Shown here: in pieces, positions 7,456-61,480 of the stretch | Position numbering within the stretch: the stretch's first letter is position 1 | Layout of the letters: every line of letters begins with the position of its first letter | NCBI GenBank assembly: GCA_030770425.1 | Contig: JASJFT010000049.1 | Span: forward strand, 1-64,000 | Source of the DNA: Darksidea phi | Lineage: Eukaryota; Ascomycota; Dothideomycetes; Pleosporales; Lentitheciaceae | Direction: 5' to 3' | Length of the DNA: 64,000 nt | Notes under the pieces: generated by a model | Told to the model about the DNA's origin: nothing | Databases searched by the model: none | Seen by the model: the letters and a program-made list of their open reading frames with translations, nothing else | Position numbers and translations under genes: made by a program

Positions 7456-9777
7456 CTAAACCCTAGCTAGCTCAACGTTGGTATTGGCGCCCTTGTCGAG
7501 TAGCAGTTTGACTATCTGCCCGTTGCCACCGTATGAAGCTGCCCTGAGTGCGTTACCGTACTCTCCACCCTGCGCGTTAATATCGGCGCCCTTGTCGAGT
7601 AGTAGTTTGACTATCTGCTCGTGGCCGCGGTATGAAGCTGCCCCGAGTGCGTTACCGTAGTCTCCACCCTGCGCGTTGACGTCGGCGCCCTTGTCGAGTA
7701 GTAGTTTGACTATCTGCTCGTGGCCGCTGTATGAAGCTGCCCCGAGTGCGTTACCGTACTCTCCACCCTGCGCGTTGACGTCGGCGCCCTTGTCGAGTAG
7801 TAGTTTGACTATCTGCTCGTGGCCGCGGTATGAAGCTACCCCGAGTGCGTTACCGTAGTCTCCACCCTGCGCGTTGACGTCGGCGCCCTTGTCAAGTAGT
7901 AGTTTGACCATCTGCTCGTGGCCGCGGTATGAAGCTACCCCGAGTGCGTTACCGTACTTTCTACTCTGCGCGTTGACGTCGGCGCCCTTGTCGAGTAGTA
8001 GTTTGACTATCTGCTCGTGGCTACTGTATGAAGCTGCCCCGAGTGCGTTATCGTATAAACCACCCTGCGCGTTGACGTTGGCGCCCTTGTCGAGTAGTAG
8101 TTTGACTATCTGCTCGTAGCCGCAGTATGAAGCTACCCCGAGTGCGTTACCGTAGCCTCCACCCTGCGCGTTGACGTCGGCGCCCTTGTCGAGCAGCAGT
8201 TTGACCACCTGCTCGTTCCCTCTATATGCAGCTGCCCGGAGTGCGTTGTCGTACTGTCCACCTTGTACGTGCACATGGGTAATTTGGTGCAGTATCGTTT
8301 GAACGGCCAGCATGTGGTCCTCATCTATGGCCTCTCGGAGCACTTCTTCTTCCAACTTCTCTCCTTCTTCGTCTCCTACTTTTAAGTGCAGCAAGTGTTT
8401 CACAATATGGGCGCACCCTTGTAGTGCAGCCTGTACTATAGCTTTTTTCCTGTCATGAATAACCACTATCTTGACTCGGTGCTCAGGACTTCCCCATGAA
8501 ATTACCCGCAATCCCTTATCGTATTTCTCGTGTTCTTGAGATTCGTTCGTCCGGCCGCCTAGTACAAGCCTAACAACCTGACTGTGACATGTCTCATCGT
8601 CTTTGAAATTTCTTTCTAGTCTCTTTTCAAACAGGAGCAGCGCTGGATCATCAACAACTGGTATGCCCCGGGACATGAAGTTTGGTTCTTCGGGCATGAG
8701 CGGCACGTTCAGCACGTGCCCTGATTGAAGATAAGGGAAAAGAACCTCTGTTGCTTTCTCTTGTCCGAATGGTAGTACAAAACAGGTTGTTTCTAGAGTT
8801 TCGAAGTAGTACATGAGATTAAGAATCTCATGAACAGATAGAGGTGTGGTATGAAGCAGATATGTGACAGCCTGGTGAATAACTTGGTGAGTCGGCTTCT
8901 TGTAGTCTATATCAATGCTTTGGGTATCTAAAGGATCAGAGGACATGCCGAGTAGGGCGTATATCTTGTCGCGTTCGTCTGTTGCTTTACTCGCTTGAAA
9001 TCTGCGGAGGAGGGTACATAAGTCTCGTTTCTGGCCCCACCAAGATCCTGAACGGGAAGGCCCTGGCATAATCTCCAATACAGCTTGACAGTGCGGCTCA
9101 GGCTCTTCTCTAATTACGGACGGTGCACAGGCAAATATTTCCGCCGGGACAGACCAAGCGCCACAACAGACAGTAGCTTTTCGAGCGTTTGCTACTTCCT
9201 GTAGGATCCAGACCCGCGTGAACCACTGTCGGCCTAGCAGTTGCCGTAAACCGGTACGATAATCATCCCAACGGTTATCATCAAGCGTCAACTGTCCAAG
9301 AAGGCTATCTGGACTTGCCCTTGGGTACTGATTGAGTGTGTCCATAAGACGCATAATCTCTAACGTGGCCTTTCCCAGCCAGAAGAGAACTCCCTCAGCA
9401 GATCCGAAGATTTTTCCCATCTGTTGAACCTGCCAGCCCTGCTCTTCTTTGTCGGCTTGATTGATACATATCGCGTCAATCCATAGATAACGGTCTCTGT
9501 CGTGCAATCGCAAGTATTGTAACGCAGAGTACAGGTTGTCTGTTATCCAAAGCCGCTTTCGATCAAGTGTCATGCATTCCACAAGCTCGGTGCTGCCCCA
9601 TACGTAGGAGAGCGCTTCATATGAAACGTGTTCATCGTTCGATAGCGACTGCGGGAAAAGCTCACATTCGAGCTCAGGACCTTGGTATTTCAATAGCTTT
9701 AGGAGTCGGAAAGTCGGGTCCCCGGGTCGAAGCGGTGTGTACTGGTATGTCTCGAGAGCTGGTATTGGAGTGCCCAT
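7456..9777 (-). CDS. HET-domain protein with C-terminal ankyrin repeats
   Basis: A 773-residue, single-exon gene of the heterokaryon-incompatibility type. The HET domain shows YEALSYVWG at 53-61, LWIDAICINQ near 98-107, RVWILQEVANA near 188-198 and a later DERDKIYALLGM. A linker of about 180 residues follows, then eight ankyrin units of 33 residues, of the form YGNALGVASYRGHEQIVKLL plus DKGADVNAQGG. HET domains are known as signalling and cell-death modules in fungal self/non-self recognition; near-identical repeats usually form the variable recognition surface. The ATG at 9775-9777 was chosen since the upstream extension starts at GTG and reads poorly. There is no NACHT/NB-ARC motif between the domains, so this is a HET-ANK fusion rather than a full NLR. 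The gene sits between inverted repeat arms. Confidence 0.88.
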   Translation of the reverse strand: MGTPIPALETYQYTPLRPGDPTFRLLKLLKYQGPELECELFPQSLSNDEHVSYEALSYVWGSTELVECMTLDRKRLWITDNLYSALQYLRLHDRDRYLWIDAICINQADKEEQGWQVQQMGKIFGSAEGVLFWLGKATLEIMRLMDTLNQYPRASPDSLLGQLTLDDNRWDDYRTGLRQLLGRQWFTRVWILQEVANARKATVCCGAWSVPAEIFACAPSVIREEPEPHCQAVLEIMPGPSRSGSWWGQKRDLCTLLRRFQASKATDERDKIYALLGMSSDPLDTQSIDIDYKKPTHQVIHQAVTYLLHTTPLSVHEILNLMYYFETLETTCFVLPFGQEKATEVLFPYLQSGHVLNVPLMPEEPNFMSRGIPVVDDPALLLFEKRLERNFKDDETCHSQVVRLVLGGRTNESQEHEKYDKGLRVISWGSPEHRVKIVVIHDRKKAIVQAALQGCAHIVKHLLHLKVGDEEGEKLEEEVLREAIDEDHMLAVQTILHQITHVHVQGGQYDNALRAAAYRGNEQVVKLLLDKGADVNAQGGGYGNALGVASYCGYEQIVKLLLDKGANVNAQGGLYDNALGAASYSSHEQIVKLLLDKGADVNAQSRKYGNALGVASYRGHEQMVKLLLDKGADVNAQGGDYGNALGVASYRGHEQIVKLLLDKGADVNAQGGEYGNALGAASYSGHEQIVKLLLDKGADVNAQGGDYGNALGAASYRGHEQIVKLLLDKGADINAQGGEYGNALRAASYGGNGQIVKLLLDKGANTNVELARV
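7465..8256 (-). repeat. eight tandem 99-bp ankyrin-coding units
   Basis: Eight direct repeats of 99 bp within the HET-ANK gene. The inner units are nearly identical, down to the shared segments cccttgtcgagtagtagttt and gactatctgctcgtggccgc. Differences collect at a few positions of the 33-residue unit: 1 (Q/G/L/K/D/E), 3 (G/D), 7-8 (RA/GV/GA) and 11-13 (RGN, CGY, SSH, RGH, SGH, GGN). Confidence 0.9.
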
Positions 9778-10153
9778 GATCAAGGAAGGTAAGCGCGTTA
9801 GATGAGAGGAGTTGTGAAGTGTTCTATTGTCTGCGACACGGCTGAACCTAACGCCCCGTCGTACCAAAGGCGGGGCAGTGGCTAGCGCTAAGCCATCTGA
9901 CCATGGCGACCACCATAGATATTCAGCCGGCAAAACACCGGCTATCACTGCTTGGCGTGTTAATTTCCCGGGTACTACTGTTGCTAAGTTCGATCACAAG
10001 GCAATTTGCCACATCGAACCTTCGAGTATACCCTAGCTTAACCGACCAAGGTGTCCAAGAATTTTGGATTAAGTATTTGCTACCTTAGGCGGACGAACGC
10101 CTTGATCACACTAGTAGGGAGGATGGCTGACTTGCACCCGCAGCCGCCATGAT

Positions 10154-10517: not shown

Positions 10518-12050
10518 CTATCTTCGCCTTTGGCCCTTCAATCTCTGACGTACCTTTACGTTTGCGTCCACGTTTTGCTTGCCTCGAGGTGGTTGCTTGT
10601 TGTCCTTCCCTTCTTCTGCTCTGCCTCCTTCCGGTAAGGTAGTTTTCTGCCGGCCACGCTTTGCCTTTGCCTTCGCTTCCTTGATAGCCTCCTTCTCAGC
10701 ACGCTTCGCTCGCGCTTCCTCAAGTTTGTCAAAGTCCATCACCTTCCCCTTCCGGAGCACTTATGATCTAGTAGACCGTCGAGCTCTACCTTCGTCGTTG
10801 ACCTTCATCAGGAATTTGATCTGATCTCGCTAAAGGATGCCCCTAGAAAATGCTAAATGGCAGCTTTCGAGAACTTTTCTAAGTGCCTTTGCAAATTGCG
10901 CTTGCTCCTTTCATCGAGGGCTTGGGAATCTTTGTTGACTATGATGTTCTGCAGCGACACCAGCCCCTGCGTGGTCACAGGCATCGCTGGCGTGAGAGGC
11001 GACTGTACGGTTTCTTGGAGTTCTACCGCGCCCGGCGGCGTTGCCTGATCTACTGCTGCGGTTGTTAACCCACTTGGAGGCTTTGGTATGCCTTGGAAGA
11101 CTCTATCTGCGTTCAACGAGAACAAGTCACATGTAGAAAATCTAGACCGAATGTTCCGCGGTGTAAAGGCCTTGCTTCTTACACGACTATATAGGCAGGT
11201 GAAGTGCTCCTTTCCGATAGTGTTAACACTGCCTTGAGTAGGGCGAATACCGAGACGTCGCAAGGCTAGAGCTTATAAGAAGTATAGGATAGTAGCCGAT
11301 ACGGAATAATATTATTTCTAAGGTAAAACTTAAGAATTTCTAGGGACTTATAGGTACCGAAACTATCGGTAATTAAGATAAGAGATCTACTATTAGCTCG
11401 TTCATTAGTCTTAGGGTTAAAAATACGCTTAAGTTACTATAGACTAATATAGGAATTAGTACATCGAGATTCGGAGTACGTATACTATTAACCTAGGGTA
11501 AAAAACGTAGTCTAGTTATTCCGATATATTATAGCCCGCTATATAATTATAGGGTTTAAATACCTACTATCGGTACTAATATATTTAGTCGTAGTTATTA
11601 TAGTAACTTAATACGCGTACCTCTATAGTCCCTAGTATTATCTTTACCTACGAGGACTTAATAGAGCCTAGTATAGATAAAATAACTCTACTTTTATCTA
11701 TATAATAAACATTCTCCGCTAGAATTACTAGATCCTATAATAGCCCTAACTACCTCGAACTAATATATAATTTATAGGTATATATTTTTCTCGTAACGGT
11801 ACTAGTTTAGTACTTTCTAAATAATATCGTCTAGTTCGTATACGGCGGTTTCGGCGGTCTAGCTAATAGGGGTTAATAAAGGGTAAGGTAGTAAGCTAGA
11901 AATACGATAAACTATACTCGAATAGAGTACCTAAGGTTAAATATTTAAAGGAGAAACTTTACTAGGGCTTCTTCCTCCTACGGAGTAAGGTACTATTAGC
12001 TTTATACTTTTTCCTTTATTAAACGCCGGCTAAGCGCCCGGTGGGTAAGG
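10518..12050 (-). mobile_element. decayed pogo/Fot-type DDE transposase relic
   Basis: Read on the minus strand, an open piece at 10853-11263 encodes a typical C-terminal part of fungal pogo-like (DDE_1/CENP-B) transposases: GKEHFTCLYSRVR, KAFTPRNIRS, LNADRVFQGIPKPP and ALDERSKRNLQRHLEKFSKA. Just upstream (about 11245-11330), the decayed sequence still reads EILKFYLRNNIIPYRLLSYT then SYKL-stop-PCDVSVFALLKA, recognisable as the HTSHKLQPCDVSVF block of the DDE domain. A lysine/arginine-rich tail follows at 10518-10760 in another frame. From about 11270 to 12050 the N-terminal half is reduced to TA-rich sequence with many stops, consistent with RIP. No intact element remains, and I could not fix its terminal repeats. 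Confidence 0.8.
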
Positions 12051-12084
12051 GTCGAGGTAGCGACTCCGCGATAGGGTGGTAAAC

Positions 12085-12107
12085 GGGTTGGGGTTAGGGT
12101 TGGGTTA
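12085..12107 (+). repeat. short degenerate telomere-like tract
   Basis: The tract reads GGGTTGGGGTTAGGGTTGGG followed by TTA, close to the fungal telomere unit TTAGGG but degenerate and only about four units long. It sits at the border between the RIP-mutated transposon relic and the normal-composition histone-like gene. Confidence 0.4.
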
Positions 12108-12222
12108 CAGATCTAAAAATAGATATTATAGATATTTATCATAGATAGTTATTATATTAGGTAGACAATTGAATTTAGAGTCTAGCCTATAGTATTGGCC
12201 CTGTCCTATGGAGAATAGCTAT

Positions 12223-12773
12223 TCAAGTGAAACCTGCATAACCAAACTTGCCGTAATACCGTCTTGCCAACTGCGAATCCTTCACCTGAATAGTAACTCT
12301 TTTGGCATGGATAGCATTTATGTTGCAGTCTATAAAAGTTAGTAAATAGTAAATAGTATAGTAATAAGAACTATACCTTCAAGGTATCCAACTAAGAATG
12401 ACTCCGCAGCCTCCTGGAGGGCCTCAATTGCACTTTTTTGGAAGCGCAATTCATTGCATTGAAGAGACGAATGAGTAATCTCGCGAACTAGGCGACTAAA
12501 GGGGACCTTGCGGATAAGAAGGTCGGTGGACTTCCGATATCGTCGAATCTCCCGAAGTGCAACAGCCGCGTGCTATTAGTCTCTAACCGTGATTAAGGGC
12601 CGTGATAACTTACTGCCTGGCTTGTAGCGACGCTTTTTCGGCGGCACAGGCCTCTTGCCACCAGCCGGCTGCTTTCTAGCTGGATTGCGGGCAGCCTTCG
12701 CAGCTAGCTGCTTCTTCACTGTCTTACCGCCAGTTGCTATATGGTGGGCGGGCCTTTTCCTAGAGCGCGACAT
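12223..12773 (-). pseudogene. divergent histone H3 variant with CenH3-like features; one splice acceptor apparently lost
   Basis: Exons 12614-12773, 12377-12565 and 12223-12329 would give 151 residues with an H3 histone fold. The tail starts MSRSRKRPAHHIATGGKTVK and continues KQLAAKAARNPARKQPAGG, so it keeps the TGGK and KQLAxKAAR parts of H3. It lacks the TKQT (K4) and ARKS (K9) contexts and has Asn where H3 has K27. An extra KRPVPPKKR precedes RYKPG. The fold shows [30 protein letters not shown], loop 1 [26 protein letters not shown], then AIHAKRVTIQVKDSQLARR. Loop 1 is two residues longer than in H3, as in CENP-A, but the Trp usual in CenH3 is Phe. Intron 2 (47 bp) is canonical. Intron 1 (48 bp) has a GTAAGT donor and ACTAAT branch site, but the in-frame 3' end reads GCGG at 12566-12569 where GCAG is expected. 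The upstream TAG at 12573-12575 would shift the frame. Either it is a recent pseudogene or splicing is unusual. Confidence 0.7.
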
Positions 12774-12774
12774 T

Positions 12775-12830
12775 GTAGTAGGTGTATTGTATGTAGTAGG
12801 TGTATTGTATGTAGTAGATGTATTGTATAT
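12775..12830. repeat. 18-bp tandem repeat, three copies
   Basis: The unit is gtagtaggtgtattgtat, present as two perfect copies and one with a G-to-A change. It lies directly upstream of the histone-like start codon, so it would be in that gene's 5' leader or promoter. Confidence 0.8.
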
Positions 12831-12889
12831 AGAAGGTTTGGCTGAGCTAGGTAATGATAATAAGGGATTATTTAGGTATATTGGCGGTA

Positions 12890-13020
12890 AAGCGCGGGTA
12901 GTAAAGGTGAGCGGTGAATGCGCGGGTGAAGGTGAGCGGTAAATGCGCGGGTGAAGGTGAGCGGTAAATACGCGGGTGGAGGTGAGCGGTAAATGCGCGG
13001 GTGAAGGTGAGCGGTAAATG
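12890..13020. repeat. 25-bp minisatellite in the shared promoter
   Basis: About five copies of a 25-bp unit made of gcgcgggtgaaggtgagcgg plus taaat. The first copies are less regular. The array sits between the histone-like gene (start 12773, minus) and the four-exon gene starting at 13115 (plus), so changes in copy number could affect both. Confidence 0.8.
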
Positions 13021-13114
13021 CTAGCGAACGCGAACCCTACAATCTTATATTCTATTCCTACTAACACTAATCACTTCAACCAACTTTATCAAGCACTTTT
13101 ATTACGACAATACT

Positions 13115-14332
13115 ATGGATTCAATTATTCAAGAGCGTTTTGGCTCCCGAGAGGGCCTGCTGCCAAGTCTTGAGATTGAGGTCCCGCAAGGTTTCGAGCG
13201 TGAGGAATGGGAGAAGCTCACCGAGGTAATAATTACATTTATTTATAAGAGTATATACTAACTTATATAGGGTTATACTTGTGAAGAGCAAGAAGTTGAT
13301 GATATTCTTACGCAACGCGGTCAAGCTGGCTCTCGAAGGGGTCGTCCTACCAACCTAAGGGTACCCTTCAAAGGCCAGCTAAGCTCTAGTTCTCGAGCTA
13401 TTGCGCAGAGAGACCGAGCTGCTCTACTTGATAGGGAAGGGAAGGCCCTTAATAACGCGAAATCTGCCGACCGTGCCGCCAAATACCAACTTACCAATAA
13501 GCTCAAAACGAAAGATGAGAAATACAAATCTTGCACCAGCGAAGCTAAGCAGCAAGAATATCTGGATGCTAAGCTGGAAGTGCTTGCAGAAAAGCGCTAT
13601 AAGGAGCAGAAGAGTGGTAAGTTAACAGAGTTGTTTATCACATATTCTTTCTAATAAACTATAGCTGAGTGGCTGCAAACCCGTCTTGATCGCGTGCACA
13701 AGAAGTGGGAGAACATTTATCAAGAAGTTGATACGAGACACCACCAGAGAGCCTTGAAAAAGGTTTCGGAAGCGGACAAAAGCAACTCAGATTCTATTCC
13801 TCAAGGCCATGCAGTTCAGCGAGTCTATGGGCCAGGTGGCGCTCTACAGAAGATTATGCGCAAAGCCTACCAAGAAGGGTTAGCAAATCTCATCAACAAT
13901 ACTTTTGAAAGCAAAGAGGCGAAAGTAGAGTGGCAGCAATTTGTGGATAGCCTGACGCCTGATGAGATGGCTGTAGTAACAGATGAGAACTGGACGTAAG
14001 TTTAACACATTATATTGTCACGTATACGTGCTAATTAAGCTAGACAACGCGAGCCTACACCAATTCCTGACCTTCTGGGCAATCAGGATAATATTGTTCT
14101 GTATAGCGATAGACCATATGTGTTGGGCAACGACAGCGATGAATGCGAAGAGGAAGTTGATGATGATTCGGAGATTGACGATTACTATAATCAGATGGAA
14201 AATGAGTATGAGACTGAGGAACAGTGGCAGGAGACTCAAGCAGATGCTGGTGAAGCAGATGCTAATAACTCTGAGTCAGAGTTTGAGGGCTTTACAGACT
14301 TCGAAGGCTTCTCTGACAATGATGAGGCATAA
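13115..14332 (+). CDS. unknown protein, basic helical body and acidic tail
   Basis: I do not recognise this protein. Four exons (13115-13225, 13271-13616, 13665-13995, 14044-14332) join through introns of 45, 48, 48 and 48 bp or less, all GT..AG, to give 358 residues with no internal stop, so the gene looks functional. Residues 1-37 contain MDSIIQERFGSREGLLPSLE. Residues 55-150 are rich in Lys, Arg, Ala and Gln and likely helical, with a GRRGRP-like basic patch (SRRGRPTNLRVPF). A segment LQTRLDRVHKKWENIYQEV follows, then YGPGGALQKIMRKAYQEGLA. The last 70 or so residues are very acidic (DSDECEEEVDDDSEIDDYYN and similar). Acidic tails are frequent in histone-binding and chromatin proteins, and the gene is head-to-head with a histone H3-like gene; a chaperone role is an inference only. 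No membrane segment or signal peptide is seen. Confidence 0.65.
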
Positions 14333-14915
14333 GTAGAGATTACGGGTTAGATAGTAGTTATCACAGCCAATAATCATGTTCTATAACGCAAACTGGAACG
14401 CTGACCATACTATTATAATACATCTAATTCATGCCGAGCCTTAATTTAGACTAGACTGAATCTTAATTTAAACCTAAATTAAATACCTTATAATTAGGTT
14501 TCAACCAGAGTAGCCTAGTAAAGTAAGAGAGGTTCTGTTCTATACACTCTACTTCAAGAACATCAATAGTCTATCACAGCTTTTTATCATAGTGAAACCT
14601 CTTTCTACCAGCCACTGCTCCTAAGCCTCCGAAATTGAGCTCACTCTGAAGATACGCGGATTAACCGGGGTGGCAAGCTAAACCAACATCTGAGGGCGTT
14701 ACGAATCGGTCGATGGAGATACCAGCGCTACGGCAATCCTCGTTGCAAATCCATAGGGAGAGAGACACATAGCTATAGAAAGCTATTCTATGGACGGTAG
14801 ATATATAAATCTACTATGGAATGATTTCCGACTTCTAAATGAGGAAAGTGCTTCGTCACGCTGTGTGATTCGCGAGATGGTATGCGACGTTAATAAGTTT
14901 CGAAGCTAAAGTGAA
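14333..14915. other. intergenic, no gene seen
   Basis: Moderately AT-rich sequence with no open frame that I trust. It separates the four-exon gene from the converging kinase-like pseudogene. Confidence 0.4.
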
Positions 14916-26272: not shown

Positions 26273-27531
26273 CCCCTCCCCTAGGAGCTTGGGCCACTAC
26301 CCGGCGTGACGTCACGTTGGCTCCTGGGCTGGCTATGTTTTTCGTAATTCTAATCACCTTATTATGTTTTAATGTTTTAATATCTTACGCAATAGTATAG
26401 GTAGTAACTATACGATAATAATAGCTCCTAATTTACTAATAATATATGTAGACAGTTAAACGCGCCAACAACCTACTAACAACAATAGTAAGGTAACCTA
26501 CGCTAGGCTACTTCTTAGTCCTCTACTTACCGGTAGCCTCCCTAGCTAGGTATCCCCGTCGTCCTCCGTCCTGCCTATCCGTACGGGTTCCTCCGTATTC
26601 GATCCCTTACGTTATCGTTCGTATCGTATCTACTATAGATACTAGCTCTATCTTCTACGTTAGGTATTAGTTCCCTTAATAGCCTACTAAGAAGGTCGAT
26701 TTTTTCCTCCTAAACGGTCTTCCCTATATAAGCTTGTCCTCTAGCCTACGTAGACGGAATAGCTACCTCTTAACGAAATACTTATCCTCGTTATATAGGG
26801 CCTCGGACAGGAATATATTATAGGTAACTACTAATAGCTATACGAGAATCCTATCGCCGCTTGTTCCCTCGAATATGTCTAACGTATAGTTAGTTTTATA
26901 CTAATAATTATTATAATTAAGGAGTCCTATCAATAGTACCTCCCGCCTATAGCGCCGGAGACGCTCCGCCGCGATATTTGAAAGGTTTAGAGCGCTATAC
27001 TCGAATAGGCTATTATACTCTAGTTCCTCCTACTAAAGGTCCTACTAAAGGACTAGGCGAACGATCGTTGGTAAAGATATATAGTTAGTAGGTATTAATA
27101 GTAAGTTTAAGGAAGAGGGTATATTAGTACTACTACTCTCGCTGTTACCAGAAGACTGAGGATATATAGTAAGGAAGCTGGCTAAGGATAAGAGATGGAT
27201 ATAGTAAGGAAGCTAGCTAAGGATAAGAGATAGATGTAGTAAGTAGGATACTAGTATCATCGCGGGCAATCTTTATACTATAGGTAGTAGTATTAGTACG
27301 CTAACTCCTCGCTACCGCTGTTGGTCTCCCAACGCTCTATAGTTCGGCATCACATGTCATTTCTCGTCCAGCGCCTTAATGTTCGAAATATTACCTCGTC
27401 GTACTGTGTACAGCTCTACAGCTCTATTATCGTGTATAAGGTGTAAGTATAGCACCTCTACTGTGTACAAACTCCTACTGTATTTCGTGCGGACCTTCTG
27501 AAGAGACTCCCACTATACAAATCCAAATCAA
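26273..27531 (+). repeat. dispersed repeat, copy 1
   Basis: About 1.26 kb that matches 60302-61480 along its whole length, and whose last 250 bp match 41643-41921. The 5' end holds the palindrome CGTGACGTCACG inside inverted CTAGGAGC and GGCTCCTGG arms. The body is TA-rich with many stops (RIP-like) and shows no coding frame. The class of element is unknown; this copy has no clear target duplication. Confidence 0.8.
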
Positions 27532-60301: not shown

Positions 60302-61480
60302 CCCTCCCCCAGGAGCTTGGGCCACTACCCGGCGTGACGTCACGTTGGCTCCTGGGCTGGCTGTGTTTTTCGTAATTCTAATCACCTTATTATGTTTTAA
60401 TGTTTCGACATCTTACGTAACAGGTAGTAACTATATAATAATAACAGCTCCTAATTTACTAATAATATATATAGACAGTTAAACGCGCCGACAACGCCGA
60501 ACCTCCTACCCTCCCTAGCTAGGTATCCCCGTCGTCCGTCCTATCTATCCCTACCGGTTCCTCCGTATTTGATGTAACCCCTACGCTATCGTTCGTATCG
60601 TATCTACTATAGATACCAGCTCCATCTTCTATGTTAGGTATTAGTTCCTTCGATAGTCTACTAAGAAAGCCGATTTCTCCCTCTTAAACGGTCTTCCCTA
60701 TATAAGCTTGTCCTCTAGCCTACGTAGATAGTATAGCTACCTCTTAATAAAACGCCTATCCTCGTTATATAGGGCCTCGGACAGGAATATGTTACAGGTA
60801 ACTACTAATAGCTATACGAGAATCCTATCGCCGCTCGTTCCCTCGAATATATCTAATATATAGTTAGTTTTATACTAATAATTATTATAATTAAGGAGCC
60901 CTATCGGTAGTACCTCCCGCCTATAGCGCCGGGGACGCTCCGCCGCGATATTTAAAAGGTTTAGAGCGCTGTACTCGAATAGCCTATTCTACTCTAGTTC
61001 CTACTAAAGGTCCTACTAAAGGACTAGGCGAACGATAGTTAGCAAAGACATGTAGTTAGTGGGTATTGATATAAGGAAGCCGGCTGAGGATAAGGGATAG
61101 ATATAGTAAGGAAGCTAGCTAAGGATAAGAGATAGATATGAGGAAGCTAGCTGAGGATAAGAGATAGATATGAGTGGGATGCTGGTATTATCGCGGGCAA
61201 TTTTTATACTATAGGTGGTAGTATTAGTGCGCTAACTTCTCGCTACCGCTGTTGGTCTCCCAACGCTCTGTGATTCGGTATTATATATTATTTCTCGTCC
61301 AGCGCCTTAATATTCGAAATATTACCTCGTCGGTATCTCACGATCGATAGTACTATATATAGCTCTATAGCTCTATTATCGTATATAAGGTGTGGGTATA
61401 GCACCTCTACTATGTACAAACTCCTACTGTGTTTCGTACGGACCTTCTAAAGAGACTCCCACTATGCAAATCTAAATCAA
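60302..61480 (+). repeat. dispersed repeat, copy 2, with flanking 14-bp direct repeats
   Basis: A 1,179-bp segment homologous over its length to 26273-27531. It is flanked on both sides by ATAGGCTAGCCACT (60288-60301 and 61481-61494), which looks like a target-site duplication. The end reads CAAATCTAAATCAA. The 5' end contains CGTGACGTCACG (60333-60344) between CCAGGAGC and GGCTCCTGG. The body is TA-rich without a coding frame. A 14-bp duplication and A-rich end would fit a LINE/SINE-type insertion, but the surrounding array has similar units, so chance within the array must be considered. Confidence 0.8.

Follow-up and report, generated by a model that had tools for sequence, protein, structure and literature searches.

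A divergent histone H3 gene of Darksidea phi, a putative member of a transposon-borne H3 family

What kind of histone H3 is encoded in a 64,000-nucleotide stretch of the Darksidea phi genome (contig JASJFT010000049.1, positions 1 to 64,000; hereafter, the window), and how did it come to lie there? A sequence-only reading had described, at 12223..12773, a divergent H3 variant with an H3-like tail and a loop 1 of CENP-A length, located among RIP-mutated repeats and possibly tied to an accessory region or mini-chromosome. That the gene encodes a divergent histone H3 is borne out by the profile match of its product (PF00125, E=6.9e-34) and by its closest PDB match, which is also a histone H3 (E=3.7e-41). 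Below, we consider the structure of the gene and its surroundings, its relatives, the transposons in which such relatives reside and the explanations that might account for them.

Gene structure and surroundings

The gene, denoted H3L after the family discussed below, spans 551 nt on the minus strand, from an ATG at 12773 to a TGA at 12223, and its spliced product is a histone H3 of 151 aa, for which two introns, unmentioned in the sequence-only reading, are required (Table 1). Intron 2 has clear signals and the short length typical of fungal introns. Intron 1 contains, besides its GTAAGT donor, a branch-like ACTAAT, and the GG in its acceptor place is needed for RYKPGTVALREI and for the 151-aa product, which continues across the junction as RYKPG-TVALREI. 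When GT and GC donors were combined with eight acceptor dinucleotides, AG acceptors yielded seven open-frame solutions. Six of these use GC donors and the remaining one a GT donor (12647, GTGCCG, 75 nt), and each gives a protein of 123–142 aa from which conserved residues are deleted; among the GT and GC donors tried, no AG acceptor preserved the conserved protein. The GG found where an acceptor would be expected in intron 1 raises the possibility that this copy is dead; judging from its splice signals, it appears to be either impaired or else unusually spliced.

Table 1. Locations of the features discussed; coordinates refer to the window unless a contig is named.
Feature	Location	Strand	Remarks
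RIPed block	11270..12110		DDE_1 (PF03184) remnant above cut-off; abuts H3L
H3L exon 3	12223..12329	-	DCNINAIHAKRVTIQVKDSQLARRYY..., stop TGA
H3L intron 2	12330..12376	-	47 nt, GT-AG, TACTAAC (GTATAG..TACTAAC..TATAG)
H3L exon 2	12377..12565	-	histone fold; loop 1 longer by two residues
H3L intron 1	12566..12613	-	48 nt, GTAAGT donor, GG in acceptor place
H3L exon 1	12614..12773	-	tail as far as RYKPG
Spacer separating divergent H3L and ACID	12774..13114		18-bp and 25-bp tandem repeats
ACID	13115..14332	+	358 aa; 4 exons (13115-13225, 13271-13616, 13665-13995, 14044-14332)
RIPed Helitron family with H3-like gene	L011 (C174:1-10000), L018 and related loci		histone part in at least 22 places

The neighbouring gene, ACID, is intact and divergently oriented to H3L, and its product is acidic at the C-terminus, where the last 99 residues include 34 acidic and 2 basic ones. 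ACID has a single match in the genome, as does the DNA of 12100-14650. No Pfam match above cut-off and no NCBIfam match were obtained for its product, and two of its exons, modelled separately, gave helical but weak models (mean pLDDT 66.1 and 62.7). The juxtaposition of a basic histone and an acidic protein encoded by a divergent gene hints at a chaperone pair. The two tandem arrays of the spacer (18 bp and 25 bp) occupy 12774-13025, upstream of both genes.

The RIPed block that abuts H3L contains the remnant of a transposase that we take to be of the Tc1/mariner type, and has few dispersed relatives, occurring at 10 places in the genome including itself. We considered this block as a carrier of H3L and rejected it, as it holds the DDE_1 remnant and gives no sign of carrying the histone gene. 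RIP bias is milder across 12.0–13.5 kb and H3L itself shows no strong RIP, so the earlier placement among RIP-mutated repeats is right for the one strong adjoining block and overstated otherwise.

A position inside a hAT element was likewise rejected: no pair of TIR and TSD was found around the gene, and the hAT dimer domain PF05699, detected at 7 places in the genome, was found at none on the window contig, whereas a profile search for DUF659 was silent on controls too and, hence, uninformative. In the light of these results, the window contains an H3L protein rather than a demonstrable H3L-hAT element; RIPed domains can escape such searches for transposon domains and ends. Nor was the gene found inside a Helitron copy: matches to Helitron loci are confined to 26–27 kb and 60–61 kb and fall in the repeat flanking one such locus, L034. 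The corresponding segments, 26273-27307 and 60302-61237, are copies of a repeat of ~1 kb that are 82–84% like the stretch beside the Helitron copy (L034 6873-7844).

Seven of the 10 neighbouring frames scanned had Pfam matches, including HET-ankyrin, kinase, NIF phosphatase, RRP36 and KRI1. The genes for RRP36, NIF phosphatase and KRI1 lie about 5–34 kb from H3L on the same contig, which argues against an accessory chromosome and, thus, against the accessory region or mini-chromosome proposed earlier. The HET-domain protein, encoded at 7459-9993 on the minus strand, contains many ankyrin repeats, nearly identical to one another, within a single open frame.

A family apart from H3 and CenH3

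A search for the other H3-type genes of this genome (51.35 Mb in 477 contigs), which the sequence-only reading had called for, located the ordinary H3 on contig C6 and CenH3 at C454:135567-135960. Relatives of the window protein were taken from the best 120 rows of each of two protein searches and, therefore, represent an incomplete sample of the family. They include named members from at least six species of four genera, namely, Pyrenophora tritici-repentis, P. teres (two rows), P. seminiperda, Paraphoma chrysanthemicola, Massariosphaeria phaeospora and Alternaria gaisen; the window protein and three unnamed proteins from short contigs complete the set. Paraphoma and Massariosphaeria belong to Pleosporales, as, presumably, do Pyrenophora and Alternaria. 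One profile search was dominated by tandem double-H3 proteins, and no relatives of H3L or ACID were confirmed in viral contigs.

In a tree of 37 rows, the 11 H3L rows are united in a single clade (support 100/98) separate from the 14 H3 rows, with the window protein nested inside a 10-row subset (97/93). The eight H3L rows remaining in a second tree, from which nine of the 37 rows were dropped (five Helitron rows, P0223, P0037, P0229 and a partial CenH3), are again united (100/97); near copies from P. tritici-repentis (P0028 and P0227) and the fragments P0224, P0225 and P0296 were excluded from the trees. Thus, the variant has relatives elsewhere, including in P. tritici-repentis, and does not group tightly with the H3 or CenH3 of its own genome; such a grouping would have spoken against the original proposal. 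The AU test rejected the grouping of the window protein with its own H3 (p=0.0006), which rules out a recent duplicate of ordinary H3, and with CenH3 (p=0.005), which, together with the separate CenH3 on C454, argues against a CenH3 identity. On this phylogenetic evidence, the window gene is very probably a member of the H3L family.

Residue counts were obtained from an alignment of the 11 H3L rows, including the two from P. teres, with the numbering of H3. The claims made earlier about the tail of the window protein hold up: TGGK and KQLAAKAAR are present, the K4 position is Arg, the K27 position is Asn and the K9 position is Ile when TGGK anchors the alignment (HHIATGGK versus ARKSTGGK), although the aligner places His there. 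In addition, the K79 position is occupied by Leu. Lacking the MARTKQTARKSTGGK tail and the K9 and K27 contexts, the protein cannot be classified as a canonical H3. Across the family, K14, K18, G12 and G13 are present in all 11 rows, K23 in 9/11, K27 in 9/11 (lost in the window protein and in P. tritici-repentis, where it is replaced by Gln), K4 in 5/11 and K9 in 3/11, exclusively in the three unnamed proteins, with many different residues replacing K9 in the others. The presence of K9 in three rows and of K27 in nine indicates that loss is not universal in H3L.

Two residues, N110 and Y130, occur in all 11 rows, that of the window included, and are taken here as diagnostic, as defined from these same rows; residue 131 is Tyr in 10 rows and Phe in one. 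R116, D123 and L126 (11/11) and H113 (10/11), which we take to be residues of the H3-H3' interface, are conserved as well. Similarity to solved H3 structures, combined with the preservation of this interface, implies that H3L can pair with H4. Loop 1 of the window protein is, as had been noted, two residues longer than that of the H3 of this genome, a resemblance to CenH3 that is insufficient alone; the additional residues are found in only 3 of the 11 rows (the window, P0023 and P0024) and, therefore, are not a trait of the clade, so that a CenH3-like identity does not follow from this length. A longer loop 1 and a divergent tail are shared with fungal CenH3 (CENP-A), but the latter forms a different clade and is represented in this genome by a gene of its own.

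The introns set the family apart as well. The ordinary H3 of this genome is interrupted twice, in the codon for Arg8 and in the one that follows VTI, and CenH3 has one intron, between QRL and VREI, whereas the H3L introns lie at PG-T and LE-D, two sites at which both H3 and CenH3 are uninterrupted. Given that these introns are private to H3L, the gene is neither a fresh copy nor a retrocopy of the H3 found in this genome. Three unnamed fragments (P0224, P0225 and P0296) run from intron 2 into exon 3 at the same site as in the window, and P0225 matches the P. tritici-repentis H3L (P0027) on both flanks, with exactly 16 extra residues at the site of intron 2. An insertion of 16 aa has been described in the second H3-like copies of Pseudocercospora (Dhillon et al., 2019; PMC6710886); by its length, the same as in P0225, it might be suggested to represent an unspliced H3L intron 2.

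Transposon carriers of H3-like genes

H3 genes carried by transposons were described in 2013 and 2019 and interpreted as captures of a host housekeeping gene (PMC3538342; PMC6710886). In P. tritici-repentis, as described there, 26 H3L genes reside inside a hAT transposon, along with a transposase and a central ORF; H3L is represented by ESTs, and the protein was assigned neither to H3 nor to CenH3 (Manning et al., 2013; PMC3538342). It resembles the window protein in this respect and in its tail insertions (PMC3538342), and the two share the clade, N110 and Y130. By contrast, the P. tritici-repentis genes are near-identical copies in a hAT element (PMC3538342), encode a loop 1 as long as that of H3 and have Gln in place of K27, whereas the window gene is a single copy with no transposase found around it, a loop 1 longer by two residues and Asn. 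Passages searched in the paper on the P. tritici-repentis pangenome (PMC9594970) did not contain the word ‘histone’.

The hAT elements of Mycosphaerellaceae, according to the 2019 report, contain hundreds of RIP-dead H3-like copies, for which capture of a host transcript without introns was inferred; once RIP had been reversed in silico, the copies showed no introns (Dhillon et al., 2019; PMC6710886). These copies cluster apart from the P. tritici-repentis H3L, and the respective hAT elements are dissimilar, which argues against a single H3L family (Dhillon et al., 2019; PMC6710886). Compared by description, the copies of Pseudocercospora, Cercospora and Sphaerulina resemble a family of elements in the genome considered here in being RIP-destroyed, transposon-borne H3 genes of Dothideomycetes, but they are reported as intron-less captures and are carried by hAT, unlike the Helitron cargo described next (PMC6710886).

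This family is represented by a RIP-destroyed repeat of ~11 kb, on the minus strand from C174:3915 to about 14880, the upper edge being placed where the matches of other copies begin; two parts of the repeat give 69 and 56 matches in the genome. Its domains, read in RIPed frames through stops, are arranged in the order DUF6570 (1.2e-12), Helitron_like_N (1.4e-4), PIF1 (2.8e-4), Pif1_2B (1.1e-4) and, near the 3' end, histone (9.7e-6). The Rep and Pif1-type helicase domains are, thus, collinear, with DUF6570 alone among the Helitron-type domains passing the Pfam cut-off and Helitron_like_N, PIF1 and Pif1_2B falling below theirs; a genome profile search with PF14214 was silent on controls too and carries no weight. 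The histone core is spanned by 22 of the 69 matches, as counted on the 43 largest, the 26 shorter ones, inspected by eye, adding none. Five of 11 loci contain the exact string with which intron 2 starts, and in each of them the intron measures 51 nt and occupies the H3L site; intron 1 is present at the matching site in both copies read.

A 46-bp 3' end (CTCGCTCCGTA..AATTTT) is shared by 10 of the 11 Helitron loci, with differing flanks, and an inverted ACGGAGCGAG is present at the 5' ends, exactly in one of the five other copies shown and with 1–2 RIP-type changes in three more. This arrangement may correspond to the asymmetric terminal inverted repeat of Helitron2, with which the family also has Rep/helicase-type matches in common; the H3-like gene distinguishes the present family, no such cargo being mentioned for Helitron2 in the pertinent passages (PMC5148889). 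The tree does not unite the Helitron H3 with H3L: the AU test leans against the two as one clade (p=0.044), while the grouping of Helitron H3 with CenH3 is not rejected (p=0.26); the Helitron rows have a composition skewed by RIP. Judging from intron sites and domain content, a Helitron of this genome probably carries a relative of H3L.

Competing origins and possible role of H3L

We estimate at roughly 0.6 the probability that the window gene is an H3L member with a transposon history, identity and history being taken jointly; the transposon history of this copy, on its own, is likely. Under this explanation, H3L would be a Pleosporales histone H3 family that travels as cargo of DNA transposons, in a hAT element in P. 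tritici-repentis and, probably through a relative, in a Helitron here, and the window gene would be a stranded single-copy member, no longer in a working element and impaired at intron 1, that is, a late relic. Whether it is also simply a pseudogene, decayed and serving no role at present, is an even bet that concerns this copy only and is compatible with the above explanation: the failure to find a protein-preserving AG acceptor for intron 1 and the adjoining RIPed block speak for decay, but the exons are otherwise open, intron 2 is clear and the divergent neighbour is intact.

Published interpretations point in a different direction, namely, that transposons repeatedly and independently captured ordinary host H3 (transduplication), with subsequent drift and no function of H3L itself. 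Both reports interpret their cases in this way (Manning et al., 2013, PMC3538342; Dhillon et al., 2019, PMC6710886), and the separately clustering, intron-less copies of Mycosphaerellaceae agree with it (PMC6710886), as might the varied residues at K9, which also fit relaxed constraint. Such a history is nevertheless unlikely, considering that all 11 H3L rows stand in one clade apart from the 14 H3 rows, share N110 and Y130 and have introns of their own, and that K14, K18 and the tetramer interface show no drift. We find it quite improbable that H3L is a host-owned variant with a chromosomal role, in development or stress, that was secondarily captured by transposons, the window copy and ACID being its original home: the single copy, the lack of transposon ends and the core-gene surroundings would be so explained, but intron 1 of this copy is defective by usual rules and the clade includes a high-copy transposon gene (PMC3538342, as described there). 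That the gene encodes a second centromeric H3 or a histone of an accessory chromosome, as the length of loop 1 might suggest, is hardly credible in view of the AU result against CenH3, the separate CenH3 gene, the restriction of this length to part of the clade and the core genes nearby.

If H3L is indeed transposon cargo, its properties suggest what it might do. H3K9 methylation is the mark that founds fungal heterochromatin. H3L would pair with H4 and enter nucleosomes in which position 9 and, in the window protein, also position 27 could not be methylated, whereas K14, K18 and K23 could be acetylated; because of this combination, H3L nucleosomes may resist H3K9me/HP1 heterochromatin, and such resistance would favour a transposon carrying H3L. 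Fungal DNA transposons, including hAT and Helitron, share genes for TET/JBP dioxygenases, proposed to counter silencing, and a transposon supplying H3L would similarly loosen its own silencing (Kojima, 2025; PMC12730594). The parallel lies in a chromatin-related gene common to several DNA transposon lineages; the difference is that TET/JBP are enzymes that act on DNA and, as reported there, occur in other fungal groups, whereas H3L is a component of the nucleosome (PMC12730594). ACID could be a carrier or chaperone for H3L. The conservation of H3L across genera favours function, and we regard the anti-silencing mechanism as a tentative possibility. The more comprehensive proposal, which we consider speculative, is that H3L is a selfish histone: a transposon-encoded H3 clade that passed between hAT and Helitron, lost K9 in most lineages but retained the sites of acetylation and the tetramer interface and, with an acidic chaperone-like partner, keeps the element out of H3K9me heterochromatin, in which case the published ‘captured H3’ of Dothideomycetes would represent a single old family that has introns of its own rather than the product of repeated captures.

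Beyond the two reports (PMC3538342; PMC6710886), no transposon-borne H3, Helitron carrier or single H3L clade was found among the titles and abstracts listed, a literature largely without subscription journals. New here are the H3L introns at two sites uninterrupted in the H3 and CenH3 of the same genome, and the position of the window gene next to a divergent single-copy gene with an acidic tail, with no transposase found around it. By sequence comparison, the single clade uniting six named species of four genera, three unnamed proteins and the window protein among the matches listed also appears to be new, as does the RIP-destroyed Helitron family of ~11 kb, in which an H3-like gene lies close to the 3' end and is interrupted at the two intron sites of H3L. 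Collectively, one clade with private introns, the repeated loss of K9 beside constant K14 and K18 and the Helitron as a second type of carrier suggest a histone kept by mobile elements. If this is true, transposons would fight silencing via the nucleosome itself rather than via an enzyme, and natural H3 proteins without K9 would become usable for studying how fungal heterochromatin forms and spreads.
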